A stretch of DNA of 64,000 nt from Pyruvatibacter mobilis (GTDB taxonomy: Bacteria > Pseudomonadota > Alphaproteobacteria > CGMCC-115125). The notes under the pieces were generated by a model that was given only the letters and a program-made list of their open reading frames with translations, made no database searches and had not been told where the DNA came from. The stretch covers positions 3,203,501 through 3,267,500 of the forward strand of contig NZ_CP051630.1 in NCBI RefSeq assembly GCF_012848855.1, given 5' to 3'. Positions 22,165-37,611 of the stretch are shown here, piece after piece. A program made the translations under genes and the position numbers. Numbering within the stretch: position 1 is the first letter of the stretch; every line of letters starts with the position of its first letter.

Positions 22165-23880
22165 ATGTCCTCTACAGATGTTGCAGGCGGGGTACCTGCC
22201 GCCGAGGCACCTGATACCCCGCCATGGGCCGCAGGTGCCGCCGGACGGCCCGATGAGCTTTATCCGGTCCTGAGCGACAGTGAGATCGACCAGCTTCGAC
22301 CCTATGGCGAGGTGCGGTCGATTGCGGCGGGTACGCGCCTGTGGTCGATCGGCGAGCGCAATGTCAGTTGTTTCATCGTCATGTCCGGCGCGCTCGAAAT
22401 CCTGCGCAGGGAGGGCGAGCGGGAAGAGTGCTTCCATGTGCACGAGGCGGGCAGTTTCTCCGGCGAGACCGTGACCATGAGCGGGCGCGGTTCATTTGTC
22501 GGCGGCCGCGCGCGCACCGATCTCGAGGTCGTCGAGATTGGCCCGCAGCGGCTGCGGGACCTCCTGGCAGTTGAACCGATGCTGGGCGAGAAGATCCTGC
22601 AAGCGTTCATTCTGCGCCGTATGCGGATGATTGCGCAGCACCATGGTGACATCCTCATCATCGGCGATGCTTCAGAGCAGCTCACGGCGTCAATCCGCGA
22701 GTTCCTGTCGCGCAACGGTGTGCCCTATCGCATGGTGCCGGACGATGACGCGCCGGAGCCGGAGCGACCGGTGATTGTCTGTGGTGAACAACGGCTGGCA
22801 CGACCAACCATCAAGCAGGTGGCGGACTGCCTCGGCATGACAGCCGATCTGCCGGATGGGGCGCAGTTTGATGTGGCGGTTATCGGCGGTGGGCCGTCGG
22901 GTCTGGCGGCAGCCGTTTATGCAGCCTCAGAAGGGTTGTCGGTCGTGGTTCTGGAGAAGTGCTCCATCGGCGGACAGGCGGGATCATCTTCACGCATCGA
23001 GAACTATCTCGGGTTCCCCACGGGCATCTCCGGCCAGGCGTTGACGGGCCGTGGGTTTCTCCAGGCACAGAAGTTCGGTGCGGAGATTGCCATTGCCCAG
23101 GAGGCTGCGGAGATTACCTGCGGTGCCCCGTGGCACACATTGACCACCGATTGCGGCATGGCACTCAAAGCCCGCACCGTGGTGCTGGCGACGGGTGCCG
23201 TCTACCGGCAGCCGCAGATCGAAGGCCTCGACCGCTTCGAGGGCACCAGTGTCCATTACGGGGCAAGTCATATCCAGGGCATGATGTGCCGCGGCGAAGA
23301 GGTGGTGATTGTCGGCGGCGGCAACTCCGCGGGTCAGGCGGCTGTTTATCTGTCGTCGCGGGCGCGGAAAGTCTCCATCATGGTGCGCGGCGACGGGCTC
23401 GCCGCCTCCATGTCGCAATATCTGATCCGGCGCATCGAGCGCACGCCGAACATCGACCTGCTGACCCATATGGAGGTCGAGGCCCTTGAGGGAGACGACC
23501 GGATCGACTGCATCCAGGCCCGACACAACAAGACGGGTGAGGTCTCGCGCCTTCCGGCATCGCACCTGTTCCTCTTCATCGGGGCGGCGCCGGCGACAGG
23601 GTTTCTCGATCCGGCAGTGGCGCTGGACGAGAAGGGATTTGTGCGGACCGGAGACGCGCTTGATGATACAGACCTTCAACGAGCCGCCTGGCCGCTGGAG
23701 CGCAAGCCCTTTCATCTGGAAACGTCCTGTCCCGGCATCTTCGCGGTTGGTGATGTGCGCTCCGGCTCGGTCAAGCGTGTGGCTTCCGCCGTCGGGGACG
23801 GGTCGGTCTGCATCAGCTTCGTCCACAAGGCGCTTGATGAGCGCCCGGTAAAGCAAGCCCAGGCAGCTTCAGATGATTGA
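22165..23880 (+). CDS. Cyclic-nucleotide-binding / thioredoxin-reductase-like fusion flavoprotein
   Basis: A protein of 571 residues in three parts. A cNMP-binding domain (about 35-155) includes FSGETVTMSGR. A thioredoxin-like linker (about 165-225) shows DILIIGDASEQLTASIREFL and PVIVCGEQ but has no CxxC. A TrxR-like FAD/NAD(P) module runs from about 233 to 555, with AVIGGGPSGLAAAVYAA, VVIVGGGNSAGQAAVYLS and GIFAVGDVRSGSVKRVASAVGDG. The redox CxxC of true thioredoxin reductases is absent: GASHIQGMMC stands where CATC is expected. The fusion family is known, but its electron acceptor is not well established. Confidence 0.88.
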   Translation: MSSTDVAGGVPAAEAPDTPPWAAGAAGRPDELYPVLSDSEIDQLRPYGEVRSIAAGTRLWSIGERNVSCFIVMSGALEILRREGEREECFHVHEAGSFSGETVTMSGRGSFVGGRARTDLEVVEIGPQRLRDLLAVEPMLGEKILQAFILRRMRMIAQHHGDILIIGDASEQLTASIREFLSRNGVPYRMVPDDDAPEPERPVIVCGEQRLARPTIKQVADCLGMTADLPDGAQFDVAVIGGGPSGLAAAVYAASEGLSVVVLEKCSIGGQAGSSSRIENYLGFPTGISGQALTGRGFLQAQKFGAEIAIAQEAAEITCGAPWHTLTTDCGMALKARTVVLATGAVYRQPQIEGLDRFEGTSVHYGASHIQGMMCRGEEVVIVGGGNSAGQAAVYLSSRARKVSIMVRGDGLAASMSQYLIRRIERTPNIDLLTHMEVEALEGDDRIDCIQARHNKTGEVSRLPASHLFLFIGAAPATGFLDPAVALDEKGFVRTGDALDDTDLQRAAWPLERKPFHLETSCPGIFAVGDVRSGSVKRVASAVGDGSVCISFVHKALDERPVKQAQAASDD

Positions 23881-25722
23881 CGTCTGGCGGACTGCACCGC
23901 GCAACAGCGTCGCATAAAGCCGGTCGCGCCATGTAGCAGGACGGCTCATGGCCATGCGGTCGAGGCAGGCGTCTTCCTGCGGGTCCGGGCGACCGAAAAT
24001 GCCAGCCTGTGCCAGCCGCAGCACCCCCGTCATGCTGGCAGATGCATCACGCATCAGCGCGAGGGCAGGCATCAGCCGTTGCTCGGTTTCCGTGAAGTCG
24101 GTCCCGAAAGGGAAGGGCGGCAGATCACCACGGGCTTCGGCATCACTCAGGCGGGCGGCAAGGGCCTCAGGAGTGTTGGAGCGGAAGCGTGGGTCGAGTT
24201 CGAAGTCCCCAGGCAGCTTGCCCGCCTTGATCGCTATTTCAATCAACTCGCGCTGAAATCGGCTGTCGGTAACTGCCAGCATGGCGGCAATCACGTCCGC
24301 GTCTGACTTTCCGCGCAAATCGGCGACGCCATATTCCGTCACCACGATATCGCGCAGGTGGCGCGGGATTGTCGTGTGGCCATAGCCCCAGCGGATATTG
24401 CTTTCCGTGCCCTTTGGGCCTTCACGGGTAGCGCGGATGGCGATGATTGAGCGGGCGCCTTCCAGGGCAAAAGCCTGGGCCACGAAATTGTACTGCCCGC
24501 CGACGCCCGACACGACCCGGCCGTCTTCCAGCCCATCGGACACCACGGCGCCCATCAGGGTGGCCATCATGCCGCTATTGACGAAGCGGGCGTTGACGCG
24601 GGCCCGCCGCTTTTCGTCCTCCGGCCCGTACAGCTCATTGACATAGGAGACCGGCCGCATGGCAATGCGCGCCCGCTCTTGATCCGGCATGTCTCTCAGG
24701 CGCTGATAGAAATCCGTGGGACCAAGGAAAAACCCGGCCTGCAGACAGGCCCCGTCCACTTCGCGGGACAGCACACCCGCTTCCATCAGGTCGAGAAAGG
24801 CGGGCACGAACATTTCGCTGGCACCGAACAAGCCCTCTCTGAAGGCGGATAAGTGTGATGTGCCGGTCGGTCTGTTCTGCTCGAGTGCCATTACCGCATC
24901 GTGGAAATCACCCGGGCGTTGATGGCGGAGGATCAGGCCGGCAGCGACTGCGTCGCCAATGGACCCGATCCCGATCTGCAACGTGCCCCCATCGGGAATG
25001 AGCCGGGCGATCTGCAGGCCGATGGCATGGTCGGTCGGAGACACGGGCTCACGCGGCGGCGCGAAGAGCGGCCAGTCCGCCCCCTCCAGCACATGATCTG
25101 CCATGCTCTCGGGATAGGCGGCATCACCATCCATGAATGGCAGATTGTCGTTCACCTCCATCACCAGCAGCGGGTTGATCAGCCCCTCCTCGCGCGCCTT
25201 CAAGAGGTCAGGTGTCAGGTCCGGATTGCAGCTCAGGGAAACTGTCGCGCCGTCACCTTCCCCGCGGCGGGCAACGATTTGCGCCAGCACGTTGGGTTTG
25301 CGGTCGAGGATCGCCCCCAGGGCGTGGGTGTAATTTGCCGAGATGTAGTTCTGCTGCGCCCGCGGCGAGGACAGCCAGCGGCCAGCAAGGAAGAAGAACT
25401 CGATGATCTCGATATTGGGCGGCAGGGTGCCCTTGTGCAAAGGGCCCGCATAGGCAAGGTCCGGGTAGCCGCCGAACAGCCTGTCGATCACCGGCGTGAT
25501 GAATTGCCGCTCTATGGGGTTGGACGGAGATGGTTTTTCCAGCGTCAGGGCCGTCAGGATAGTCAGCGAGATAGAGCTGTCCGCCATGGCGCGAGCCACC
25601 AGCGCGTTGCAGGTCAGATTGGCTTTCCCAAGCCCCAGGGGCATGGCGAGCACGATCGTGCCGCCTGTCTGGCGGATGATCTCGTCGGCGAGGCGGTCGG
25701 CGTCGGTGTGATGCTGGGTCAT
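23869..25722 (-). CDS. Acetyl-CoA hydrolase/transferase family protein
   Basis: A protein of 617 residues of the acetyl-CoA hydrolase / CoA-transferase family (Cat1 and 4-hydroxybutyrate CoA-transferase relatives). Features are GGTLQIGIGSIGDAVAAGL, a C-terminal ESNIRWGYGHTTIPRHLRDIVVTEYGVADLRGKSDADV with the typical TEYGVADLRG signature, and SGVGGQYNFVAQAFAL. It would move or hydrolyse CoA between short- or medium-chain acids. It is transcribed alone, and its 3' end overlaps the convergent TrxR-like gene by 12 bp. Confidence 0.87.
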   Translation of the reverse strand: MTQHHTDADRLADEIIRQTGGTIVLAMPLGLGKANLTCNALVARAMADSSISLTILTALTLEKPSPSNPIERQFITPVIDRLFGGYPDLAYAGPLHKGTLPPNIEIIEFFFLAGRWLSSPRAQQNYISANYTHALGAILDRKPNVLAQIVARRGEGDGATVSLSCNPDLTPDLLKAREEGLINPLLVMEVNDNLPFMDGDAAYPESMADHVLEGADWPLFAPPREPVSPTDHAIGLQIARLIPDGGTLQIGIGSIGDAVAAGLILRHQRPGDFHDAVMALEQNRPTGTSHLSAFREGLFGASEMFVPAFLDLMEAGVLSREVDGACLQAGFFLGPTDFYQRLRDMPDQERARIAMRPVSYVNELYGPEDEKRRARVNARFVNSGMMATLMGAVVSDGLEDGRVVSGVGGQYNFVAQAFALEGARSIIAIRATREGPKGTESNIRWGYGHTTIPRHLRDIVVTEYGVADLRGKSDADVIAAMLAVTDSRFQRELIEIAIKAGKLPGDFELDPRFRSNTPEALAARLSDAEARGDLPPFPFGTDFTETEQRLMPALALMRDASASMTGVLRLAQAGIFGRPDPQEDACLDRMAMSRPATWRDRLYATLLRGAVRQTSII

Positions 25723-25837
25723 CTGACTAGAACACGCCTCATGGCGGAAAGGTGCATTGTTTTACCGCAAACCGCTCCGCATTTGATTGCGCGTGGTTCG
25801 GGTGAGCTTGCCGGGTGGGACCGACCTGCTGACAGGT

Positions 25838-26938
25838 CTAGCCTGCACGGAGTAGAGCGCAGACGCGGTCGATATCGGCGTCTGACATATTCGGCGACAT
25901 GGGGAGGCCAAGCACATGCGGTGCCAGCGCGTCGGTGTAGGGCAGGGGGTCTGACGGCAAGTCCGAGAGAGCCGGATGCCGGTGGCAGCCGGAGCCCCAC
26001 CATGAGCGTGCTTCGATATCGTGAGCGGCAAACCGTGCGATCACAGCCGCGGCCGGTTCCTCGGTCAGAATGTTGAGCGTTGTGGATGTCCAGTCGGCTG
26101 AGAAGCCGCCCATCAGCCCTATGCCTGTCATGCACCTGATGTTGGAGGCATAGCGGGCGTGGGCTTTGACCAATGCACTGCGCTTGTTCGGCCAAGCGTC
26201 CAGCGCTGCCAGTCCAACGGCAGCGTGGTACTCCGAGAGCTTGGCATTCGTACCGGCAGCGTCCAGCACGGCCCGGTCGCCGAAGCCGAAACTGCGCAGG
26301 CGGTCGAGCCTTGCTGCCAGCTCTTCGTCATTGGTCAGGATCAGCCCGCCTTCGCCAATGCCCAGTGGTTTTGTTGCATGCAGGCTGACCATGATGGGCA
26401 TGGTGGCTGCGGGGGCCGATTGCGCGTGCGCCAGCCCGTGAAAGCCCGCGGCTGCATCAATCACGACCGGCACGCCGGTCTGGTCCATCACCCTGTTCCA
26501 AGCCGCCACATCCGGCGGGTGTCCAAAGGGGGCGACAGGGACGATCAGGGCGAGATCGTCGAGGTCATGTCGCGCCATGACGGCATCCGGTGACAGGGCC
26601 CAGGTGGCAGGATCAATATCGGCGAAATGCGGTTCCAGCCCCGCCTGCATGGAAGCCAGCGGGGTCGCGGCAAATGTCCAGGCAGGCATCAGGCATTTTT
26701 GGCGGCCGGGTCGTGCGGTGGCGGTGAGGGCAAGCTGCAGGGCCAGCGTGCCATTGGCGGCAAGCACGATAGACCCTTCAGCCGTGCCGAATGCGTGCGC
26801 CAGCCGCGCCTGAAACTCGCGCAGGAGCGGGCCCGAATTGGAGTACCAGCGGTTCTCGTCGATGCGGCGGAGATAGGGGAGCAGATCGTCCGCCGTCGGC
26901 AGCATCGGCTGCATCAGCGGAATGCGCCTTGCGGACAT
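25838..26938 (-). CDS. DegT/DnrJ/EryC1-family sugar aminotransferase
   Basis: A protein of 366 residues from the ATG at 26938, which shares a base with the stop of the upstream methyltransferase gene (TGATG). The PLP lysine is K190 in SLHATKPLGIGEGGLI, and D161 (VVIDAAAGFHG) binds the pyridinium nitrogen. RWYSNSGPLLREFQARL is the usual N-terminal signature. With RmlA/RmlB in the cluster it probably aminates a dTDP-4-keto-6-deoxy sugar at C4 or C3. That is inference. It is the last gene of the wbqC-methyltransferase-degT unit. Confidence 0.88.
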   Translation of the reverse strand: MSARRIPLMQPMLPTADDLLPYLRRIDENRWYSNSGPLLREFQARLAHAFGTAEGSIVLAANGTLALQLALTATARPGRQKCLMPAWTFAATPLASMQAGLEPHFADIDPATWALSPDAVMARHDLDDLALIVPVAPFGHPPDVAAWNRVMDQTGVPVVIDAAAGFHGLAHAQSAPAATMPIMVSLHATKPLGIGEGGLILTNDEELAARLDRLRSFGFGDRAVLDAAGTNAKLSEYHAAVGLAALDAWPNKRSALVKAHARYASNIRCMTGIGLMGGFSADWTSTTLNILTEEPAAAVIARFAAHDIEARSWWGSGCHRHPALSDLPSDPLPYTDALAPHVLGLPMSPNMSDADIDRVCALLRAG

Positions 26939-27729
26939 CAATCCTCGCCTTTGATGAAGTAGGCGTTCGGGACGGTGGAGAAGGGGAACTTGCGCATGTG
27001 GGGGGCGCCGCCAAGCGGCTCGAAGAATTCCTCTATGGCCTCTGCCTCACCTTGCCAGGGCGGCATGCCGTAGCCGTTGAAGGCAATGATCCCGCCCTCC
27101 ATGACGAGCGGATAGAGGTGTTTGAGGCCGACCGCTGTCGGCTCGTAGGTGCCGATGTCGAAATAAAGCAGTGCCAGCCGCAAGCCCTGATTGGCCTCGG
27201 CGAAGGCCGGAACTGTCTCGCGGATCTCGCCGTCGATGACCCGGGCGCGCTCGATGCCGGGCAGCAGATTGTCAGCGGTGTGTAGGTCCACAAGTTCCTG
27301 CACGATCTCACCGCTGGAGACCATGCGGCCGATGGTGTTGTCGATCCAGGGGGCAGCCGCGCCGTCCCGGTCCTCCAGGTCCTTGTAGCCGGCGAAATGG
27401 TCAAAGCCATAGACCTTGCGGGTGCGGTCACCGGGGCAGAAGGTTTCAAGCAGATTGGCCCATGTGAACAGGCCCGACCCGCGAAACACACCCAGCTCGG
27501 CAATGGAGCCGGGCATGTCTTCGATCATCCGAAAGAGTTCGTAGTGGCACAGGACACGCGGCAGGTCGCGGCGGCGGATGAAGGCAGGATAGCTGGTCAG
27601 CACGTCACGCAATGACAGCTTGCCGTTTGCCACCAGGGCTTCCATGCGCTCCCAGTGCGCTGCATCGCGCGCATCATAGGTGCGGCGCATGTCCGCGTTG
27701 AGGTCGGGGCCGGCCTTGGGGTCAGTCAT
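26938..27729 (-). CDS. SAM-dependent methyltransferase (TylF/macrocin O-methyltransferase-like)
   Basis: A protein of 263 residues from the ATG at 27729, which overlaps the wbqC stop by 4 bp (ATGA). SIAELGVFRGSGLFTWANLLE is the SAM motif I in the TylF style. KVYGFDHFAGY, RLALLYFDIGTYEPTAVGLKHLYPLVMEGGIIAFNGYG and WQGEAEAIEEFF follow the family, including the Asp that binds Mg in the double-Asp region. TylF relatives O-methylate sugars on macrolides or surface glycans. In this cluster a sugar hydroxyl is the likely target. Confidence 0.8.
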   Translation of the reverse strand: MTDPKAGPDLNADMRRTYDARDAAHWERMEALVANGKLSLRDVLTSYPAFIRRRDLPRVLCHYELFRMIEDMPGSIAELGVFRGSGLFTWANLLETFCPGDRTRKVYGFDHFAGYKDLEDRDGAAAPWIDNTIGRMVSSGEIVQELVDLHTADNLLPGIERARVIDGEIRETVPAFAEANQGLRLALLYFDIGTYEPTAVGLKHLYPLVMEGGIIAFNGYGMPPWQGEAEAIEEFFEPLGGAPHMRKFPFSTVPNAYFIKGED

Positions 27730-28382
27730 TCGGTGTCTCCGCCGTTGATGCGCGCTGCCGTGGCGGCGCTGCCTTCTGTCAGCAGGGCATGCAGGATGCT
27801 CCATTTCGGCCCGTCATAGGGGGGCAGAAATTCGAGGGTGATGCCATGCGCTGAAAAACGTGTCGCGTCATAGAGGTCGCGCCCGGCCGGTGCGTTCACA
27901 TAGGTCGATGCCCCGAGCCGCTCGCAGATCGCGATGATGCGCTCCTGACCCTTGAGGCTGCCGGGCAGGTCGAGGCTGCTGGAGCGCCGCATCGGTGTGG
28001 TGATGCCCAGAGCCGTGCAGGTTATGTCCAGGGAGCGCGCAAGCCACGGCACCAGCGGGCCCTGGGCTGCCGCAAAGAGAGTGGCCCAGCTTTCCGGCAG
28101 GGTGGTGAGCGACGGGAACCTGCGGCATTGGGCGGTCAGCCGCGCAGGTGCGTCGTCGGCCAAGCACATTTCATCGATCCGCGTTTCGCGTGGCGCGGAT
28201 TGAAGGGGGAGGGTCAGCCATTGCGGCTTGCCTCCGGTGTCGGGCAATTGGTTGCGGTGGATATAGCCTCGCCGCGTAAACTGCACACAGTCATAGATGA
28301 CGAACAAATCTGCCTGCGCAAACAGCCGGAAGTACCCCGCATAGGGCACGAAATAGGGCTGCATGATTGCGATTCTCGTCAT
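27726..28382 (-). CDS. WbqC family protein
   Basis: A protein of 218 residues from the ATG at 28382 (an ATG 3 codons earlier is also possible). It matches the WbqC family: IAIMQPYFVPYAGYFRLFAQADLFVIYDCVQFTRRGYIHRNQL, then WLTLPL, and a C-terminal PYDGPKWSILHALL. WbqC proteins recur in O-antigen and surface-sugar loci, and their reaction is not firmly established. It is the first gene of the minus-strand arm and faces the glycosyltransferase across a 105-bp divergent promoter region holding a CtrA-type box. Confidence 0.88.
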   Translation of the reverse strand: MTRIAIMQPYFVPYAGYFRLFAQADLFVIYDCVQFTRRGYIHRNQLPDTGGKPQWLTLPLQSAPRETRIDEMCLADDAPARLTAQCRRFPSLTTLPESWATLFAAAQGPLVPWLARSLDITCTALGITTPMRRSSSLDLPGSLKGQERIIAICERLGASTYVNAPAGRDLYDATRFSAHGITLEFLPPYDGPKWSILHALLTEGSAATAARINGGDTE

Positions 28383-28405
28383 GCGGCGCATTGCGCGCAG
28401 CGCAT

Positions 28406-28424
28406 GCTTAACGAACCGTTAAGC
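28406..28424. promoter_or_regulatory. CtrA-type box (TTAA-N7-TTAA) in the divergent glycan promoter
   Basis: TTAA at 28408-28411, seven bases, then TTAA at 28419-28422 fits the full CtrA consensus of alphaproteobacteria exactly. It sits in a 19-bp perfect inverted repeat (GCTTAACG, AAC, CGTTAAGC). It is 24 bp upstream of wbqC and 64 bp upstream of the glycosyltransferase start. I saw no other full TTAA-N7-TTAA in the window by eye. Confidence 0.6.
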
Positions 28425-28487
28425 ACGGTTTGGCTAGGCTCCCGCTGCCATCAAGAGACCGAAACAGGCTGGCGGGGAGCTTCGCAC

Positions 28488-29639
28488 GTGGCCACAATCG
28501 TCATGTTCAACGGCGAGAGCGCCCACAACGTGATCCGTGACCGGGTCGCGCTGGATGCAAAGCTGTTTGAGGCGCGCGGGCATGAGGTGATGGTCATCGA
28601 TCTGTCCAACCTTCAATCGCTGCGCGTGCCACGGCAGATAGATCTCTTCATTGGCTACCAGGGCTGGGGCCGCGACATCAAACTCGGTGATGGCAGCCTG
28701 CTGGTGGAGCGCTTCGGCTGTCCCTATGCGGTGATGCTGGGCGATCATCCTATCCAGCATGCGGCGCGCATTGAGGAGTTGCCTGGGAACACGGTGTTGT
28801 TCGTGGCATCCCGCGAGCACCGGACGTTCCTGGAGCAGGCGCTTCAAGTCCAACTCGATATCAGGCTCTTCACCAGCACAGTCTCCGCATCGGCGCCGCT
28901 TCCTGCGGTGGAGCGCGATCTGCCTGTCCTGATGGTGGGGCAGGCCATGGCGCCGGACGACTTTCTTGCGGGCCACAAGATGCCCGAGCAGGTGCGCCAG
29001 ATAATCGATGAGTGTTTGGAGCGGGCAGCCCGCAACCCGCATGCCGATCCAGTGGCTGATTATATGAATTCGGGCTACTCGCGGGTGCTTGATCTGGTTG
29101 GCGCGCCAGCTTCGGCCATCCAGGTGGGGCGGCTGGTCGACCTGGCTGCCCGGTATCAGTACCGCTGGTCTTATGTTCAGGAACTCAGGAAACTGCCGGT
29201 GACCTTTGTCGGTGAAAGCTGGGTGGCAATGAAGCGCCAGTCGGGTGATGCATTCAACGCGCTTCCGTCGCTGCCATATGAAGAGCTCCCTGGGCTTTAT
29301 GCCCGCGCGCAGATCGGGCTCAATCTCTTTGCTCCCTATTTCGATTTCCACGAACGCCTTCTGGATATGATGGTTCAGTCAGCGGTGGCTGCGACGGCGA
29401 AGACAAGCTGGCTGTCAGAGCTCTTTGACTTCGGCACGGAGCTTCTTGCCCTGCCGGACAGCCCTGCAGATGTTGCGGGCTGGCTGGACGATGCCTTGTC
29501 CGACCAGCAGCGCTTGGCTCAGATCGGCGCGCGGGGGCGTGCAAAGGTGCAGGCGGATTTCAATGACGAAACGCGCATAGACCGGTTGCTGGAGTTGGTT
29601 GACGAAGCTGCGCCGCCCGCTGTCTGGGCACACGGATGA
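28488..29639 (+). CDS. Glycosyltransferase, CgeB/GT-B-like
   Basis: A protein of 383 residues. The start is taken as the GTG at 28488 because GGGGAG lies 9 nt upstream; an ATG at 28503 is the alternative. The N-terminal half (FLFIGYQGWG-like segment, PYAVMLGDHPIQHAARI) and the C-terminal half (LPYEELPGLYARAQIGLNLFAPYFDFHERLLDMMVQSAV, then LSDQQRLAQIGARGRAKVQADFNDETRIDRLLELV) resemble CgeB-type glycosyltransferases with a GT-B C-terminal domain. It probably transfers the cluster's sugar. Its stop overlaps the PhyH start (ATGA). Confidence 0.75.
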   Translation: MATIVMFNGESAHNVIRDRVALDAKLFEARGHEVMVIDLSNLQSLRVPRQIDLFIGYQGWGRDIKLGDGSLLVERFGCPYAVMLGDHPIQHAARIEELPGNTVLFVASREHRTFLEQALQVQLDIRLFTSTVSASAPLPAVERDLPVLMVGQAMAPDDFLAGHKMPEQVRQIIDECLERAARNPHADPVADYMNSGYSRVLDLVGAPASAIQVGRLVDLAARYQYRWSYVQELRKLPVTFVGESWVAMKRQSGDAFNALPSLPYEELPGLYARAQIGLNLFAPYFDFHERLLDMMVQSAVAATAKTSWLSELFDFGTELLALPDSPADVAGWLDDALSDQQRLAQIGARGRAKVQADFNDETRIDRLLELVDEAAPPAVWAHG

Positions 29640-30508
29640 CAGCCGCATGCGAAACCACGCCTGACGTGCTTCGCCGGCGCTATGCCCGTGACGGCTATGT
29701 GGTGGTGCCGGGGCTGATTGCAGCTGACGCCCTTGCCGAGCTCCGCGGTGACATCGCACGCATATTTTCGCTGACGGCAGGCATAAAGACGGGTGATCCG
29801 TATCCGGACATTGAGTCCGCAGGCTTCAACCAAATGCTCCGCGACCTGTTTGAGAACCGGTTTGAGGCCTATCATGGGGCGGCGCGGCTGTGTAATCACA
29901 CGGTCAGCCTGCATCGGCTGAGCACGGACCCCGCCATTCAGAAGCTGATGCGGTCGCTCGGGGTTGCTGTTCCGGCTATCTGTGCCCGTCCTGTTGTGTG
30001 GTTTCATTCGCCGGGCCTTGCGCGGTCGGAGCGCTATCACCGGCTGCCGGCCCACCAGGAGTGGAGCAACATGCAGGGCAGTATTGACGGGATGGTCGTG
30101 TGGCTCCCTCTCTTGCCTGTCACAGCGGAGATGGGACGGCTGCAGGTTGTGCCCGGCAGCCACAGGGACGGGCTGCGGCCGCTGCTCGACGGAGCGGGAG
30201 AGGACTATCCGCTGAGCATGGACATGGACGGGCTAAGCGACACCGACTTCGTGGAGGTCGACGTGCCCCTTGGCGCAGCATTGCTGTTCTCGCCTTTCCT
30301 TGTTCACCGCTCGGGCACCAACAGAACTGAGCAGGCCCGCATAACCGCGAATTTTCGCTTCAACAATGCGGCGGACCCGAGTTTCATTGCGCGCAACATG
30401 GCAAACCCGTTTCTCTATGAGGCCCCCGCGTCGCTTATGACACCGGGCTTTCCGGATGCCTCACAGGTGCGCGGCTATTTCGAAACCATGCTGCAGGAAA
30501 GTGAGTGA
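29636..30508 (+). CDS. Phytanoyl-CoA dioxygenase (PhyH) family protein
   Basis: A protein of 290 residues of the Fe(II)/2-oxoglutarate PhyH superfamily. It has YARDGYVVVPGLI at the N-terminus, a candidate iron site H140-x-E142 (PAHQEWSNMQGS; family normally HxD) with distal H224 (FLVHRSGTN), and R235 for 2-oxoglutarate. MGRLQVVPGSHRDG is typical. In a sugar cluster it could hydroxylate or oxidise a sugar or acyl group. The Glu in place of Asp is allowed in some members but is worth noting. Overlaps the glycosyltransferase by 4 bp. Confidence 0.82.
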   Translation: MTAACETTPDVLRRRYARDGYVVVPGLIAADALAELRGDIARIFSLTAGIKTGDPYPDIESAGFNQMLRDLFENRFEAYHGAARLCNHTVSLHRLSTDPAIQKLMRSLGVAVPAICARPVVWFHSPGLARSERYHRLPAHQEWSNMQGSIDGMVVWLPLLPVTAEMGRLQVVPGSHRDGLRPLLDGAGEDYPLSMDMDGLSDTDFVEVDVPLGAALLFSPFLVHRSGTNRTEQARITANFRFNNAADPSFIARNMANPFLYEAPASLMTPGFPDASQVRGYFETMLQESE

Positions 30509-30511
30509 TGG

Positions 30512-31951
30512 ATGACCGGGCTTGATGTTCAGTTCATCACCCATGCGACGCTCAAGATAAGCGGGGCGTTCGGCACGCTCCTGTGCGATCCGTGGTTCCT
30601 GAATGAGCCGGTCTACAATCTGAGCACTTGGAAGTATCCGCCGGCCCGCGTCCCCCCCGAAGAGGTGGTGAAGGATGTGGATTATCTCTTCATCACCCAC
30701 ACCCATGAAGATCACTTCCACATTCCGTCGATCAATTACATTGATCGCGACACGCCGGTCTTTCTGCCGGCCTATGACGAGCATCCATCGCTGCGGGCTC
30801 ATACGTCGGAGCGGGTGATGCGGGCCATGGGCTTTCACGACATCCGCAGGCTCAAGAGCTGGGAAACCGTGATGCTGGGCGGCGTGACCCCGCTGACCCG
30901 CGTGCCCTCTGCCGTTGAGCGGAGCCACGATTGGGAGAATTCGGGCTTTGTCATCGAGAGCCCTGATTGCGTGCTCCTCAACGTCAATGACAACCTCAAT
31001 GACGTTGCCCTGTGCAAGGACATCAAGGCGCGATGGCCTGAGATCGATATCGTTTTCATCCAGAGCGGTGGCGTCACGATGTTCCCCGGCTGCTTCCGCA
31101 TGAGCGAAGACGAGATGCGGCGCGAGGCCGACAAGCGCAAGGTCGCCTTCGCGGATCAGCGGCGCATGCTCGATCATGTGAAGCCAAAACGCATCGCGCC
31201 CTTTGCTGGTGACTTCTGCTGGCTGGATGACAAGTACTTCCACAACAACTGGGCCAATCGCACGACGGCCGCCCTGTTCGAAGACATGATGAACACCGAC
31301 TATGCGCAATCGGGCTGTGAGCTGGTGCAGCTCTACCCTGGAGACCGGTGGAGTGTTGATGGCGGGATCGTGCGCACCCACGGGGAGATCGACTGGGACC
31401 GGATGCTCGAGGACATCAGCGAACTGCAAAAGCGGTTCCGGCCCAAGCTTGATGCGATCAATGCCTATCTGAACGATGTGCGCTACGAGGATTTTGAAGC
31501 CCGTAGCCGCGCCCGCACAGACCTTGTGCAAAAGTACATCACGCGTGATTACATCGATTTTGATGCGCGTATCCGGCACACGATCGAGGGGCCGCATTCA
31601 GGTTTTTCCTTCGTCCTCAAGGCCAACTCCGAGACCGGTCTTGTCATTGACTGGGATGACGAGGGCGAGGTGATGCAGACGCTCTATGTGCCTGAGAACA
31701 TTTGGGCGGCGATCCTCGAAGGGCGGCTCATGTGGAACATTGTCCAGTGGGTCGGCGAGGCGGAGCAGTTGGGAGATTATGTTCAGGATCTGGGGCGGTT
31801 CTGGTTCTGGCTGGAATATCACCTCGATCTCAATGCCAAGAACATTCAGGCGATAATCGAGCCCATGCTGATACCGGGCCTTGATCAGCCTATCCGCCCC
31901 AATGCCGCCTTTTTCCCAATGGCAGGTGAATGGGACGCGGACGCGACATAG
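30512..31951 (+). CDS. Metallo-beta-lactamase-fold hydrolase, CMP-NeuAc-hydroxylase-like
   Basis: A protein of 479 residues. The N-terminal MBL domain has the metal motif H63-x-H65-x-D67-H68 (ITHTHEDHFH), preceded by ATLKISGAFGTLLCDPWF. The long C-terminal half (about 280-479: YEDFEARSRARTDLVQKY onward) is not a standard MBL partner domain. The layout resembles the catalytic part of CMP-N-acetylneuraminate hydroxylase without its Rieske domain; this is a tentative resemblance. It starts 3 bp after the PhyH stop, so it is in the same operon. The reaction is unknown. Confidence 0.72.
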   Translation: MTGLDVQFITHATLKISGAFGTLLCDPWFLNEPVYNLSTWKYPPARVPPEEVVKDVDYLFITHTHEDHFHIPSINYIDRDTPVFLPAYDEHPSLRAHTSERVMRAMGFHDIRRLKSWETVMLGGVTPLTRVPSAVERSHDWENSGFVIESPDCVLLNVNDNLNDVALCKDIKARWPEIDIVFIQSGGVTMFPGCFRMSEDEMRREADKRKVAFADQRRMLDHVKPKRIAPFAGDFCWLDDKYFHNNWANRTTAALFEDMMNTDYAQSGCELVQLYPGDRWSVDGGIVRTHGEIDWDRMLEDISELQKRFRPKLDAINAYLNDVRYEDFEARSRARTDLVQKYITRDYIDFDARIRHTIEGPHSGFSFVLKANSETGLVIDWDDEGEVMQTLYVPENIWAAILEGRLMWNIVQWVGEAEQLGDYVQDLGRFWFWLEYHLDLNAKNIQAIIEPMLIPGLDQPIRPNAAFFPMAGEWDADAT

Positions 31952-31956
31952 ACGCC

Positions 31957-32844
31957 ATGACGGACCAGGCCGGTATTCGATGGGCATTCGCCGGGTGTAA
32001 ACCGCAAGGCGCTGGCATCCTCTCGGCTCTGGGGCAGGACGGTTTCGTGCCCGACTTCTGCGCGGTGCCAACGGACCTGGCCGACGCCGATGATGCGGAG
32101 ATGCACAGCGTTGCGTCGCACCTTTCGGTTCCCGTCTACCGAAGCCAGCGGCTTGAGGAATTGGAGCACAGACTGGCAGCTTTGGATCTGCTGCTTGTGT
32201 GCCGTTTTGCCCTGTTGCCGCCAGCGGTTTTCAACGCACCCCGATTGGGTGCGGTGAATGTGCATTCGTCGTTATTGCCGCGCTATCGCGGCGTGCATCC
32301 CGTGTCCTGGGCGCTCATCAATGGGGAGACCGAGACTGGTGTCACCCTGCACAGGATTGGCGAGGGCGCTGACACGGGGCCAATCCTGTCCCAGTCACAT
32401 GTTGCCATAGACGACAATGACGATCTTTGGAGCCTCACCGCCAAACTGAACGCTGTATCTGCTTCAAGCGTGCTGCACCTGTTCAACGGCATTGCCGCAA
32501 CCGGCGATCTGCCAGCGGCCCGACCGCAGGCAGGACGGCCGAGCATGGCCCCGCGCCGCACACCGGATGACAGCCGCATTGACTGGGCCGGTGCCGCGCA
32601 GACCATTTCAAATCTGGTGCGTGCCTTACCCGTACCTCTGCCTGCAGCCTTCTGCTTTGCCGGAGATGGCCGCCGGGTTGAGATCCGATCCGCGCGGCTT
32701 TGCGCGCCTTGTGAGTCCTTGGGCGTGCCGGGTCAGGTTGTGCAGGGTGATGCTGATGGCGTGGCGCGGGTGCTGTGTGGTGACGGCCGGTGCCTCGATG
32801 TGATCGCTGACCATTCACTTGCTGCCGGAGATGTCCTCACATGA
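31957..32844 (+). CDS. Formyltransferase family protein (sugar N-formyltransferase-like)
   Basis: A protein of 295 residues from the ATG at 31957; an ATG at 31930 with an AGGTG site is an alternative. The N10-formyl-THF transferase triad is intact: N101-x-H103 in AVNVHSSLLPRYRG and D139 in GEGADTGPIL. It lacks the anticodon-binding behaviour expected of Fmt by context, and its C-terminal part is OB-like (VEIRSARL). Beside RmlA/RmlB and an aminotransferase it probably formylates an amino sugar. Its stop overlaps the next start (ATGATG region, 32841-32844). Confidence 0.82.
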   Translation: MTDQAGIRWAFAGCKPQGAGILSALGQDGFVPDFCAVPTDLADADDAEMHSVASHLSVPVYRSQRLEELEHRLAALDLLLVCRFALLPPAVFNAPRLGAVNVHSSLLPRYRGVHPVSWALINGETETGVTLHRIGEGADTGPILSQSHVAIDDNDDLWSLTAKLNAVSASSVLHLFNGIAATGDLPAARPQAGRPSMAPRRTPDDSRIDWAGAAQTISNLVRALPVPLPAAFCFAGDGRRVEIRSARLCAPCESLGVPGQVVQGDADGVARVLCGDGRCLDVIADHSLAAGDVLT

Positions 32845-33830
32845 TGCGCAGTTGGCTTGTGGCAGATACGGATGCCGACGGGTGGGCTGCAGCGCTTGAC
32901 GGCATTGACCATTGCTTCGCCCATCGACGGGACTTTGCCGGCCTGATGGGCCGTGCGGCAGGGACACGGACAAAGCTGTTTGTCGCCGAAGGTGACGGCT
33001 GCAAGGCTGTGTGCCCCATCGCGGAGCGCAGCTATCGCGGTGCGACTGATGTCTTCACCCCCTACGGCTTCAGCGGGTTTGCCGGCACTGGCGATCTTTC
33101 TCAACTGCCGGATGCATGGCGGGCCTTCGCGCAGGGGCAGGGGTATGTCGCCGGATACATCATGCAGCACCCGCTCGCGATGCCGGGGCGTCTCGCAGGT
33201 GCCTGGCCTGAGATGTCTGATGCAGGCCGGACGCTTTACCGCGTTGATCTGACAGTGGGTGAAGAAGAACGGCTGCGTGCGCTGTCCAGCAAGAAACGGG
33301 CACAGCGATTGCGCAAATGGCTTGAGGCGGCATCCATCGAGACGGACCAGGCGCGATTGGCGGAGGCCTTTATGCGCCTTTACCCCGACCTGATGTCTCG
33401 CCGGGGTGCGGCGTCCGTCTACCGCTTTTCTGACGATATCCTGCGTGATCTGGTGAGGCTTCCCGATACGGTTCTTGTCGGTGTGTGCGATGCGGCGGGT
33501 GAGGTCACGTCGGTCGCACAAATGGGCATCGCGCCAGCCTGCGGTGAATATCTGTTTGTTGCCGCCCGCGAAACGTCGTCTGGCGATGGGGACGGCTTAC
33601 TGTGGCTGGGGTTGCGCGCGCTCGCGGACCGTGGCGCACCTGCCTGCAATCTGGGCGGCGGGATAACAGAAGGCGACGGGCTGAGTGACTTCAAGCGCCG
33701 ACTGGGAGGAGAACCGGTCCCCATTCCGGTCTTGCGCCAGATCTTCGATGCGCCTCGCTATCAAGCATTGTGTCAGTCAGCCGGGTGCGACCCGGACAAG
33801 ACGGATTTTTTTCCGGCCTATTACAGGTGA
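32841..33830 (+). CDS. FemAB/GNAT-like acyltransferase
   Basis: A protein of 329 residues. It has two GNAT-like lobes: the N-terminal lobe with KLFVAEGDGCKAVCPIAERSYRGATDVFTPYGFSGF, and the C-terminal lobe with LSSKKRAQRLRKWLEAASIE, YEYLFVAARETSSGDGDGLLWLGLRALADRG-type core and CNLGGGITEGDGLSDFKRRLGGE. The last segment is characteristic of FemAB-like (PEP-CTERM/XrtA-type) acyltransferases. It probably N-acylates a sugar amine or transfers an aminoacyl group. It overlaps the convergent FAD enzyme by 10 bp. Confidence 0.75.
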   Translation: MMRSWLVADTDADGWAAALDGIDHCFAHRRDFAGLMGRAAGTRTKLFVAEGDGCKAVCPIAERSYRGATDVFTPYGFSGFAGTGDLSQLPDAWRAFAQGQGYVAGYIMQHPLAMPGRLAGAWPEMSDAGRTLYRVDLTVGEEERLRALSSKKRAQRLRKWLEAASIETDQARLAEAFMRLYPDLMSRRGAASVYRFSDDILRDLVRLPDTVLVGVCDAAGEVTSVAQMGIAPACGEYLFVAARETSSGDGDGLLWLGLRALADRGAPACNLGGGITEGDGLSDFKRRLGGEPVPIPVLRQIFDAPRYQALCQSAGCDPDKTDFFPAYYR

Positions 33831-35215
33831 GCGGTCAGGCCCTGAAGGATGTGATCGTTGAGCGTGTCGGCTTTGAGATCATTCAGGGTGCCGATTAGCC
33901 TGGGCGTGATCCCTTGCTCGGCCAATCGGGTGTGTGCTGTGCGCAAGGCGTCCCGATTGCTGGCGCTTGGGGCAACGATGCTCAGGGCCGGCTGGCAGGC
34001 AATTTCTGTGACTGTTGCGCCGGGTCGCAACACACCCAGCCGGGTGAGCGCGTCGGTTGCCTTTGCGGCTGTGCACTCAGGTGAGTTGCCGGTCATCTCA
34101 ACCGTTACAATCTGATGCCCCGGGCGGGCACCAGTGCCGCCGAAGCTGACGCGGTAAGCGCTTGTGGTGGGCTCGAACACATGCAGCAGCCCGGGTTCGA
34201 CCAGCAGATCATCGCCGTTCACCTCAAGCCAGATAATCGCCAGAGGCAGTTTCTCGATCTGTGTCTTCACACCGGCAAGCGCGCACCACGCCTCCACTGA
34301 ACTGCCGATGATGAGGGGGCACGCCCAGCGCAGGGACGAGCCATCGGCAAGTTCTGCGGTAGTGCGTGCACCGTCACGTGACAGGTTGGTCAGGTCCGGG
34401 ATGCGGCTGATGGTAAGGCCAGGCGTTGCCTCCGCGGCAGCCAGCAGCTTTTCGATCAGCTCACCAAAATATCCGCTGGCCGGATAGAAATAGGTGACGG
34501 CGCCACGCCCGCGTTCAATGTTGCCCCGGCAACCGGCATTTACGGTGCGTGGATAGAGCAGGGGCGTCCATATCTTCGCGGCAAGGTCGGCGGGAATGCT
34601 GCGCCATTTATCCGGGTACAGCTTGGCCGCGAATGGTGCAATCATCCGCGTGTGGAGCGTCAGGCCGTGATTGGCGAGCGAGGCGTCCTCAAGGATGCCT
34701 GCCGCCAGATCAGGTGGCGACCCGAGGCCGAGGGTCAGTGCTGACGGCGGGGTGGCGGAGAGAAGGGCTGCTGTCTCGCGTTCCACGGCTGCTGCATCTT
34801 CGGTGCCCAGCATGCGGGGCAGGGGCGTCAGGTCGAGGGACGCTGTGAAATCATCGGCGAGGACGCCCGCATAGATCATTTTGGGAGACGCGGTCGAGGT
34901 GATCTCAAGACCGATGCGGTCTTCAAGGAAGCGGCGGATATGGGGTGCGAACGGCCTGCTGCCCATTCCCGGGCGGTAGGTCTCAAGCGGTGCTTCGCCC
35001 TCATGGGTGAGGTCGAGCCTGCGGCAACCCATGTCGAGCTGAAAGCCGTTACGCGCCATCGTGGCGAACCCGGCGCCTATGCCGCGCTCCGGCAGAAGCA
35101 GTGTGACCGATCTGCCTGCATCCGCTGCCGAGATGGCGGCCACAAGGCAGCCAACGCCGCCGCCGACAACAACGAGATCAGCCTGAATGTCGCGAACGGT
35201 GTGTGCTGCCGTCAT
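33821..35215 (-). CDS. FAD-dependent oxidoreductase of unknown substrate
   Basis: A protein of 464 residues with an N-terminal Rossmann dinucleotide site (DLVVVGGGVGCLVAAISAADAG) and a second strand pattern like amine oxidase or UDP-galactopyranose mutase-type flavoproteins (YFYPASGYFGELIEKLLAAA, YPDKWRSIPADLAAKIW). The C-terminal end (IGTLNDLKADTLNDHILQGL) fits the FAD-binding tail. The substrate is not recognisable. It is the third gene of a minus-strand unit rmlB-rmlA-this gene, 6 bp after rmlA, so it probably acts in the same pathway. Confidence 0.75.
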   Translation of the reverse strand: MTAAHTVRDIQADLVVVGGGVGCLVAAISAADAGRSVTLLLPERGIGAGFATMARNGFQLDMGCRRLDLTHEGEAPLETYRPGMGSRPFAPHIRRFLEDRIGLEITSTASPKMIYAGVLADDFTASLDLTPLPRMLGTEDAAAVERETAALLSATPPSALTLGLGSPPDLAAGILEDASLANHGLTLHTRMIAPFAAKLYPDKWRSIPADLAAKIWTPLLYPRTVNAGCRGNIERGRGAVTYFYPASGYFGELIEKLLAAAEATPGLTISRIPDLTNLSRDGARTTAELADGSSLRWACPLIIGSSVEAWCALAGVKTQIEKLPLAIIWLEVNGDDLLVEPGLLHVFEPTTSAYRVSFGGTGARPGHQIVTVEMTGNSPECTAAKATDALTRLGVLRPGATVTEIACQPALSIVAPSASNRDALRTAHTRLAEQGITPRLIGTLNDLKADTLNDHILQGLTAHL

Positions 35216-35221
35216 CTGCGT

Positions 35222-36094
35222 CTACACCCGGCTGCGGGCGATGAGTTGGAGATAGTCGGCATAGCTGCTTTCGCCGAAGCTTTCGGCAATGGCGACAAGC
35301 TGCTCGCGTGAAATGTAGCCGGAGCGATAGGCAATCTCTTCGGGGCAGCCGATCTTAAGGCTCTGGCGTTCTTCAATGGTCTGCACAAATTGCGATGCCT
35401 GCAGAAGCGAGTCGTGCGTGCCGGTGTCCAGCCACGCATAGCCGCGGCCGAGAAACTCTACTTTCAGGCGGCCGGCCTTTCGGTAGATCTCGATAAGGCT
35501 GGTGATCTCCAGCTCGCCGCGGGCGCTGGGGGTCAGCTCGGCAGCGGCATCGCTCACATCGCCGTCAAAGAAATAGAGGCCCGTGAGCACGTAGTTGGAT
35601 TTCGGGTTTTGCGGTTTTTCCTCAACGCCAAGCGCATTGCCCTGATCATCGAGCTCGATGACGCCGTAGCGGTGCGGATCGCCGACCCAGTAGGCGAAAA
35701 CGGTGGCGCCGTCGTTGAGATGCGCTGCATTGAGCAACTGGCCGGACAGGCCCGCGCCGTGGAAGATGTTGTCACCGAGCACGAGGGCGCAGGGGGATCC
35801 GTCAAGGAATTCGCGGCCCAAGGTGAAGGCCTGCGCGAGGCCTTCCGGGCGCGCCTGGGTCACGTAGCTCAGGGTCAGGCCCCACTGGCTGCCATCGCCA
35901 AGAAGGGCCTTGTAGGCGTCGGCGTCCTCCGGGCGGGTGATGATGAGTATGTCCTTTATGCCCGTCAGCATCAGTGTGCTAAGGGGGTAATAGACCATCG
36001 GCTTGTCGTAGACCGGGAGAAGCTGCTTGGATACAGCCTTGGTGACCGGGAAAAGCCTGGTGCCGCTGCCGCCGGCGAGGATGATGCCCTTCAT
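35222..36094 (-). CDS. rmlA: Glucose-1-phosphate thymidylyltransferase RmlA
   Basis: A protein of 290 residues from the ATG at 36094, which has an AGGCAAGG site. It makes dTDP-glucose from glucose-1-phosphate and dTTP. Features are MKGIILAGGSGTRLFPVT, KQLLPVYDKPMVYYPLSTLMLTGI, ALVLGDNIFHG, VEEKPQNPKSNYVLTGLYFFD and RGYAWLDTGTHDSLLQAS. The frame is open 24 codons upstream but that part is not family-like. It lies 126 bp downstream of rmlB. Confidence 0.96.
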   Translation of the reverse strand: MKGIILAGGSGTRLFPVTKAVSKQLLPVYDKPMVYYPLSTLMLTGIKDILIITRPEDADAYKALLGDGSQWGLTLSYVTQARPEGLAQAFTLGREFLDGSPCALVLGDNIFHGAGLSGQLLNAAHLNDGATVFAYWVGDPHRYGVIELDDQGNALGVEEKPQNPKSNYVLTGLYFFDGDVSDAAAELTPSARGELEITSLIEIYRKAGRLKVEFLGRGYAWLDTGTHDSLLQASQFVQTIEERQSLKIGCPEEIAYRSGYISREQLVAIAESFGESSYADYLQLIARSRV

Positions 36095-36220
36095 GCACCT
36101 TGCCTCATGCCGCTTCTCCCCCTTCGTGCCACTGCCTTGCAGTGCGGTGATTCTGTTGCACAGCATAGGGCCCGCGGGTTGGCCGCGTCACCCGGTGGGC
36201 ACTCGGAGGTTCGGCAGGGC

Positions 36221-37270
36221 TCAAGCTTCGCGGTCCAGCAAGGGTGCCCACCAGTGCCGGTTGTCGAGATACCAGGAGACCGTCCGGCGAAGGCCGGTCT
36301 CAAATGTGTTTCGCGGCTGCCAACCCAGATCCCGGCGCGCCTTTGTCGCGTCAATTGCATAGCGCGCGTCGTGTCCCGGGCGGTCGGTCACGTGGGTTAT
36401 GAGGTCGGCATATGACCCGCTGCCACGGGGGCGCATCTCGTCCAGCAGCGCGCAGATGCGATTGGCTATCTCGATGTTGGTGTGTTCCTCGGATGCGCCG
36501 ATGGCATAGGTTTCGCCCGGTTTGCCGTGTCTTGCCACTGCAAGCAGCGCGTCCACATGATCATCCACAAAAAGCCAGTCGCGCACATTCTCGCCGGTGC
36601 CGTACACGGGGATGTCGACGCCCGCGAGCGCGTTTACGATCACCCGCGGGATAAACTTCTCCGGGTACTGATAAGGCCCGTAATTATTGGTGCAATTGCT
36701 GACAAGGACCGGCAGGCCGTAGGTGTGATGCCAGGCACGCACCAGATGATCGGCGGAAGCCTTGCTTGCGGAGTAAGGTGAGTTCGGTGCGTAGGGCGTG
36801 GTTTCTGAAAACCGGCCCGTCGGGCCAAGGCTGCCGAACACTTCGTCTGTGGAAATCTGGTGCAGGCGGAATGATTGCCGGCGCGTGTCGTCCAGCGTTT
36901 CCCAATAGGTGCGCGCCGCCTCCAGCAGGGTGGCGGTGCCTGCAATGTTGGTGTCGATGAAGGCCTGCGGGCCGGTTATCGAGCGGTCCACATGGGTCTC
37001 CGCCGCCAGGTTCATGATGATATCCGGTTTAAAGGCGGATATGGCGCCGCTGAGCGACGCGTGATCCCGGATATCGCCCTTGATGAAGCGGTATCGCTGT
37101 GTCGTCCGGGGGTCCGGCAGGGAGTGCGTATTGCCCGCATAGGTCAGGGCATCGAAATTGAGGGTCTGCGTCTCACCGTCCGCCACCAGCCGCCGCACAA
37201 GAGCTGAGCCGATGAAACCGGCACCGCCGGTGACCATGATTTTCCCAGACGACTCATTCCGCTGACTCAT
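36221..37270 (-). CDS. rmlB: dTDP-glucose 4,6-dehydratase RmlB
   Basis: A protein of 349 residues from the ATG at 37270 (a shorter start, 37237, is possible). It converts dTDP-glucose to dTDP-4-keto-6-deoxyglucose. The NAD-binding GGAGFIGSALVRRL, the catalytic STDEVFGSLG and the Y-x3-K pair in SPYSASKASADHLVRAWHHTYGLP are present, then NNYGPYQYPEKFIPRVI and GENVRDWLFVDDHVDALL. RmlC and RmlD are not in the window, so the product may be used for a 4-amino or 4-formamido sugar rather than L-rhamnose. Confidence 0.96.
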   Translation of the reverse strand: MSQRNESSGKIMVTGGAGFIGSALVRRLVADGETQTLNFDALTYAGNTHSLPDPRTTQRYRFIKGDIRDHASLSGAISAFKPDIIMNLAAETHVDRSITGPQAFIDTNIAGTATLLEAARTYWETLDDTRRQSFRLHQISTDEVFGSLGPTGRFSETTPYAPNSPYSASKASADHLVRAWHHTYGLPVLVSNCTNNYGPYQYPEKFIPRVIVNALAGVDIPVYGTGENVRDWLFVDDHVDALLAVARHGKPGETYAIGASEEHTNIEIANRICALLDEMRPRGSGSYADLITHVTDRPGHDARYAIDATKARRDLGWQPRNTFETGLRRTVSWYLDNRHWWAPLLDREA

Positions 37271-37611
37271 GGCTGGACAATACAGGCCATGGCCCGGCAC
37301 GCCTATGCCGGCTGTCGGCTTCGGAAGACAGAACGTCTCACTGCACCTCATCGGGTTGTTAGGCCTCGGGCCCGGGCGGAATGTTTGCAGTCACGGCCGG
37401 TGAAACACGCCTGAAACAGCTCGCGACACCTCTCGTTTTCGTGAGGTTTCCCGCGCATTTATTGCCTTCCGTCCAAGATGCCATGCAGTGCGTCCGCAAC
37501 TCCGGCGGGCGCGTTGAATCTTTCTCAGCACAGGGTCAGATCGTTCCCGTCGTCACCGACACGCCCCAACCCTTCCATCCGGGGGCGGACAATCCACACG
37601 GGAGTTACCTG
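37271..37611. other. Intergenic region between rmlB and the YHS gene
   Basis: 341 bp between divergent genes. I see no supported gene, RNA or convincing repeat. It must hold the promoters of rmlB (minus) and the YHS protein (plus); only the latter's GGGAG site (37600-37604) is clear. An open frame running through it from 37381 into the YHS gene has no family resemblance. Confidence 0.5.

Follow-up and report, generated by a model that had tools for sequence, protein, structure and literature searches.

Sequence evidence for a CtrA-type box in the divergent promoter of an accessory glycan island of Pyruvatibacter mobilis

CtrA is the cell-cycle master regulator of alphaproteobacteria. In the window analysed here, a stretch of 64,000 nucleotides from the genome of Pyruvatibacter mobilis (contig NZ_CP051630.1, positions 3,203,501 to 3,267,500), an accessory glycan island of 11 genes (25740..37480, not assigned to a strand) contains a putative CtrA full box between two divergent operons, and the sequence makes it likely that this region is a CtrA-activated divergent promoter which times a glycan of flagellin, or of another surface structure, with flagellar assembly. 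In the proposed mechanism, phosphorylated CtrA would bind the two TTAA halves of the box in the -35 region and activate the rightward five-gene operon, which encodes a glycosyltransferase (GT), a PhyH-type dioxygenase, an MBL-fold protein, a formyltransferase and the product of the gene at 32841..33830. Since the site is symmetric, it would probably also activate the leftward three-gene operon (wbqC, methyltransferase and aminotransferase), whose predicted transcription start coincides with the start codon. The cell would thereby make a modified 4-amino-4,6-dideoxy sugar at the time when a new flagellum is constructed, flagellin being the likeliest acceptor and LPS or another surface glycan the alternative. 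CtrA binding, the direction of regulation, cell-cycle timing, sugar and acceptor are all predictions from sequence. Such a mechanism has already been published, as have its two elements, the CtrA control of genes for flagellin glycosylation and the activation of divergent promoters from a single site; new is the predicted CtrA target, an island that is a candidate for flagellin glycan synthesis and has an unusual set of enzymes, in a genus that is alone in its family among the genomes examined. The findings suggest that accessory glycan modules enter their host under cell-cycle control, so that flagellar decoration would be made solely at flagellum construction.

The box, TTAACGAACCGTTAA, occupies positions 28408-28422 (no strand assigned), matches TTAA-N7-TTAA exactly and is located in the divergent intergenic region 65 bp from the GT gene and 25 bp from wbqC. 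It is the single exact occurrence of this pattern in the window, for which dinucleotide shuffling predicts 0.01 (one of 100 shuffles contained one). A preliminary description of this DNA, which had reported an exact CtrA-type box in the divergent glycan promoter, close to the starts of wbqC and the glycosyltransferase gene and with no second full box in the 64 kb, was accurate in these respects. Its 19-bp perfect inverted repeat, GCTTAACG-AAC-CGTTAAGC at 28406-28424, has perfect 8-bp arms, but the 3-nt centre is unpaired.

The five genes of the rightward operon (plus strand) overlap or are at most 4 bp apart and encode the CgeB-type glycosyltransferase GT (Glyco_trans_1_2, PF13524; 28488..29639) as first gene product, the PhyH-type dioxygenase (PF05721; 29636..30508), the MBL-fold protein (PF12706; 30512..31951), a sugar N-formyltransferase (PF00551/PF02911; 31930..32844), for which ArnA-type and other formyltransferases are the nearest NCBIfam models with scores below their cut-offs, and a protein conserved in other islands that matches no Pfam or NCBIfam model (32841..33830). 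The leftward operon (minus strand), whose genes overlap, starts with the possibly leaderless wbqC (PF08889; 27726..28382) and continues with genes for a TylF-type O-methyltransferase (PF05711; 26938..27804) and a DegT-family sugar aminotransferase (PF01041; 25838..26941); the latter is nearest to the dTDP-4-dehydro-6-deoxyglucose aminotransferase DesI (TIGR04427), with a score below the cut-off. A second leftward operon of three genes (33821..37351, minus strand), which has no box of its own, encodes a possible FAD oxidoreductase (33821-35215, a weak match), an RmlA-type sugar nucleotidyltransferase (35222-36166) and an RmlB-type NDP-sugar dehydratase (36221-37351). Thus, the profile matches comprise both nucleotide-sugar enzymes and a glycosyltransferase, and because RmlA, RmlB, a DesI-like aminotransferase, a formyltransferase and a methyltransferase are present, we infer a modified 4-amino-4,6-dideoxyhexose as the probable product. 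No flippase or polymerase (Wzx/Wzy) and no ligase was seen within the island. Of the island proteins, the MBL-fold protein is the best conserved; its counterparts in two other islands are 70% and 59% identical. Its similarity to the CmlA di-iron hydroxylase is only weak (E ~0.006); it may be an oxygenase or a hydrolase with the sugar as substrate.

The island is flanked by a CoA transferase gene (23869-25722) and by YHS and FMO genes (37.4-40.4 kb). In one congener (G003), the CoA-transferase and FMO genes are adjacent and the island is missing, and in another (G001) just the YHS gene and one other gene are located between them (loci compared: L132 and L145). Homologues of wbqC, GT and the 33821 protein were not found in any of three congeners; the box serves an accessory island that is missing in these congeners, which refines the earlier reading. 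As the island is absent in all three, its gain in P. mobilis is a simpler reading than loss in the congeners. Its G+C content does not differ (62.2% vs 62.4%). The MBL-fold protein defines the island type; among 385 alphaproteobacterial genomes, it was found in P. mobilis and two others (G085 and G336) only, and its matches in plasmids are remote. No relatives of the island turned up in viral contigs, and no GT homologues in plasmids or phages.

A box is present in all four known versions of the island, which occur in distant alphaproteobacteria. The metagenome-assembled genome of Rhodobiaceae bacterium SP61 (L023/L024) has the same divergent pair, with 43% identity for GT and 61% for WbqC, next to methyltransferase, aminotransferase and MBL-fold genes. 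Its box, TTAACAAGCTGTTAA, is the sole one in 10.6 kb and is found at the matching position, 24 bp from wbqC; the block CTTAAC-N5-GTTAAG is the best-kept part of the GT/wbqC intergenic region. In G085, where the locus is the same as L027 from the metagenome-assembled genome of Rhizobium sp. Q54, the box is located 24 bp before the PhyH gene, and in G336 between the DegT and RmlA genes. The exact position is thus kept solely in the GT/wbqC pairs, while two of the four islands carry the box at a different promoter. Shuffling predicts 0.0075-0.04 boxes per island version, and the real-box density about 0.06-0.08 each in P. mobilis and SP61, the value for SP61 being extrapolated from the matches listed. 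Six loci outside the island type that share wbqC only (L025, L026, L028, L029, L117, L118), of which at least L026 is gammaproteobacterial according to its title, have no box. The check for a box in other cluster-bearing genomes suggested earlier thus gave a box in each version, in one case at exactly the same place between GT and wbqC. Because the boxes are located at three different internal promoters in four versions, CtrA control may have been gained more than once instead of being inherited; we tentatively envisage a mobile flagellin-decoration module which was repeatedly wired to the cell cycle of its host and in which, here, one symmetric box would drive both arms, one of them leaderless. 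The recurrence of CtrA boxes at differing promoters of one island is the part worth following.

In the whole genome (3.33 Mb, one contig), TTAA-N7-TTAA occurs at 18 sites and the reversed-pattern control at 12, an excess of 1.5 times that is by itself a weak test. As this control was too blunt, a histogram of TTAA spacings was added. Among the 87 TTAA pairs that are 0-24 bases apart, 18 have the N7 spacing, and the mean of the other spacings is about 2.7 each (a slightly low value, as 82 of the 87 pairs were listed), which corresponds to P ~2e-9 for N7. The second-highest spacing is N6 with 8 pairs; N6 sites are functional CtrA sites in R. sphaeroides (PMC6180460), and such a pair is found about 130 bp upstream of ctrA. 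The ctrA gene (L062:3167-3874) was identified by the CtrA equivalog model NF045991 (428 bits, cut-off 350). All 18 boxes are intergenic according to a codon-usage gene caller, compared with 6 of 13 single TTAA sequences in the window, and the genes flanking them include flgI/fliX, fliO (two sites), an operon with a MotB-type gene, gcrA, hemE with a PPPase gene, mnmG, and genes for a diguanylate cyclase (GGDEF) and a response regulator, i.e. the neighbours expected of a CtrA regulon. Conservation in congeners could be followed for the 17 other sites only, since the island is absent there: for 13 of these, the corresponding genes of G001 and/or G003 are also accompanied by a box, the spacers drifting to 66% identity. 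The preliminary description had considered cell-cycle control of the surface glycan plausible, and of the three findings it had named as refuting this, none was obtained: the frequency is above chance, as seen in the N7 peak, the intergenic location and the flagellar, gcrA and origin-like neighbours, the boxes recur in relatives, and ctrA is present with a score above the model's threshold. In alphaproteobacteria, the origin is usually found near hemE and a PPPase gene; a region with divergent PPPase and hemE genes and a CtrA-type box kept in two congeners (L059, G000:C1:2909900-2915900) is likely the replication origin.

On the GT side, a putative -10 element, TAGGCT (28435..28440, plus strand), follows 12 nt past the box in the register TAnnnT. 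With this spacing, the box would have its first base at -39 and transcription would start near 28447. The GTG start codon of GT at 28488 is preceded by GGGGAG. The activating box of Caulobacter ctrA P2 is located at -39, and the full CtrA-motif promoters of Caulobacter resemble the one predicted here in having TTAA-N7-TTAA with the 5' base near -35/-39, the difference being that the transcription start is a prediction here (PMC4287350). When the 18 sites of the genome and the L023 site were considered, in both directions where divergent, TAnnnT was found 12 nt past the box in 5 of 29 gene-directed promoters, compared with 0.17 per average other offset; three of these five are independent of the present locus and of L023, which has TAGCAT at the same offset as TAGGCT. 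Towards wbqC, the corresponding hexamer CGCAAT is a poor -10, and leftward activation is therefore less well supported than rightward activation. A box at -39 predicts a transcription start one base before the ATG at 28382, which is the best-supported wbqC start and agrees with that of the SP61 homologue, and for the SP61 wbqC and G085 PhyH genes, with a distance of 24 bp between box and ATG, an exactly leaderless start.

The island, with the window at 3.2 Mb, is far from the flagellar genes of P. mobilis (0.85-0.88 Mb), so the proposed link to flagellin is drawn from relatives. In G336, the island is located between a flagellin gene (L150:1382-2230) and FliS/FliK/FlgD genes and is adjoined by the gene of a FlmG-like TPR-GT41 protein, and a TPR-GT41 protein gene is also found next to wbqC in G085. 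Three genomes of the genus g88 encode distant GT homologues (~24% identity) whose start is preceded by a box at 48-59 bp, and a flagellin gene adjoins the homologue in both of the g88 loci that were read (L094 and L096). The island sugar probably decorates the flagellum and is then likely made solely while a new flagellum is built. The loci L094 and L096 (genomes G294 and G371), where genes for flagellin, a CgeB-type glycosyltransferase with a CtrA-type box and a TPR protein follow in a row, are possibly a second kind of CtrA-controlled flagellin glycosylation locus. P. mobilis itself has flagellin genes at L151:18422-19561 and L152:2-1021 with a TPR protein alongside. This protein of 715 aa (L152:1404-3551, G000:C1 ~857.3-859.5 kb), whose C-terminal half is unassigned, is encoded beside two flagellin genes; its layout resembles that of FlmG, which consists of an N-terminal TPR region and a C-terminal GT-B domain (PMC7591256), and it is a candidate flagellin glycosyltransferase of this organism.

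In the flagellated alphaproteobacterium Caulobacter crescentus, CtrA drives flmG, flmA and neuB, and the flmG/flmAB/neuB system resembles the present one in the combination of glycan genes with a CtrA site (PMC7591256) and in that TPR-glycosyltransferases adjoin related islands. Unlike the Caulobacter genes, which serve pseudaminic acid, the island looks like a pathway for a formylated and methylated 4-amino-4,6-dideoxyhexose, includes a CgeB-type glycosyltransferase, WbqC and PhyH, and is accessory. To our knowledge, the lineage of Pseudomonas syringae, unlike the present host, is without CtrA. Its viosamine island is reported to be a comparable gene island for a modified viosamine (4-amino-4,6-dideoxyglucose) on flagellin (PMC3927599). 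The sharing of a CtrA site by divergent promoters has its counterpart in Rhodobacter sphaeroides, where a single site activates fliF2p and fliL2p (PMC6180460); these control flagellar structural genes and were tested experimentally, unlike the glycan genes here, whose control is predicted from sequence.

O-antigen loci often encode WbqC, RmlA/B and DegT enzymes, and CtrA might bind the box to control a generic envelope glycan, such as an O-antigen or capsule decoration, instead of a flagellin glycan. CtrA binds LPS biosynthesis promoters in Brucella (PMC10787603) and governs capsulation of Caulobacter via HvyA (PMC4241560); moreover, the wbqC-only loci L117 and L118 are located among glycan genes with no flagellar neighbours, and genes outside the island could use the sugar for LPS. 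We nevertheless regard this as unlikely and a flagellin glycan as more likely than a generic surface polysaccharide, in view of the flagellar neighbours in G336, the TPR-GT41 genes beside wbqC in G336 and G085, the boxed g88 homologues that adjoin flagellin, and the lack of a recognizable polymerase, flippase or ligase in the island. A possibility of somewhat greater weight is that CtrA activates the rightward operon only, the box being neutral or repressing for wbqC: a good -10 is found on the GT side alone, and of two Caulobacter promoters sharing the flgB/fliO site one is repressed and the other activated (stated in PMC6180460). On the other hand, in two lineages the box is 25 and 24 bp from the wbqC ATG, and for the G085 PhyH gene the distance is 24 bp; these values fit a leaderless start where a box at -39 would predict it.

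A match by chance alone to a motif of 8 bases, for which the small excess over the reversed control might be quoted, is very improbable given the spacing peak, the intergenic sites, the functional neighbours and the fact that boxes are kept in congeners and at the GT/wbqC promoter of SP61; even with the genome's 18 sites, an intergenic stretch as long as this one would be expected to contain about 0.004 boxes. Hardly any weight remains for the operator of a dedicated palindrome-binding repressor or for a terminator hairpin: the perfect 8-bp arms do reach past the TTAA halves and the strand folds better than its shuffles, but just CTTAAC-N5-GTTAAG is kept in SP61, and the predicted fold leaves the palindrome unused. 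The Pfam and NCBIfam profiles gave no match to regulator families among the island genes.

As an operator family of its own, the 19-bp palindrome was rejected (9 genome matches with up to 3 mismatches vs 11 for the control), as was a terminator or sigma-70 consensus at the site, no such element being found. A stable hairpin, whose fold does not involve the palindrome, is predicted for the plus strand at 28395-28460 (z -3.7); it is probably irrelevant because it is largely upstream of the predicted transcription start. The L023 promoter contains no GANTC, and in P. mobilis one GANTC is located at 28371-28375, 33 bp from the box and within the first wbqC codons. GANTC is strongly depleted in the window (47 found vs 265 expected from shuffling), which fits CcrM methylation, as expected.
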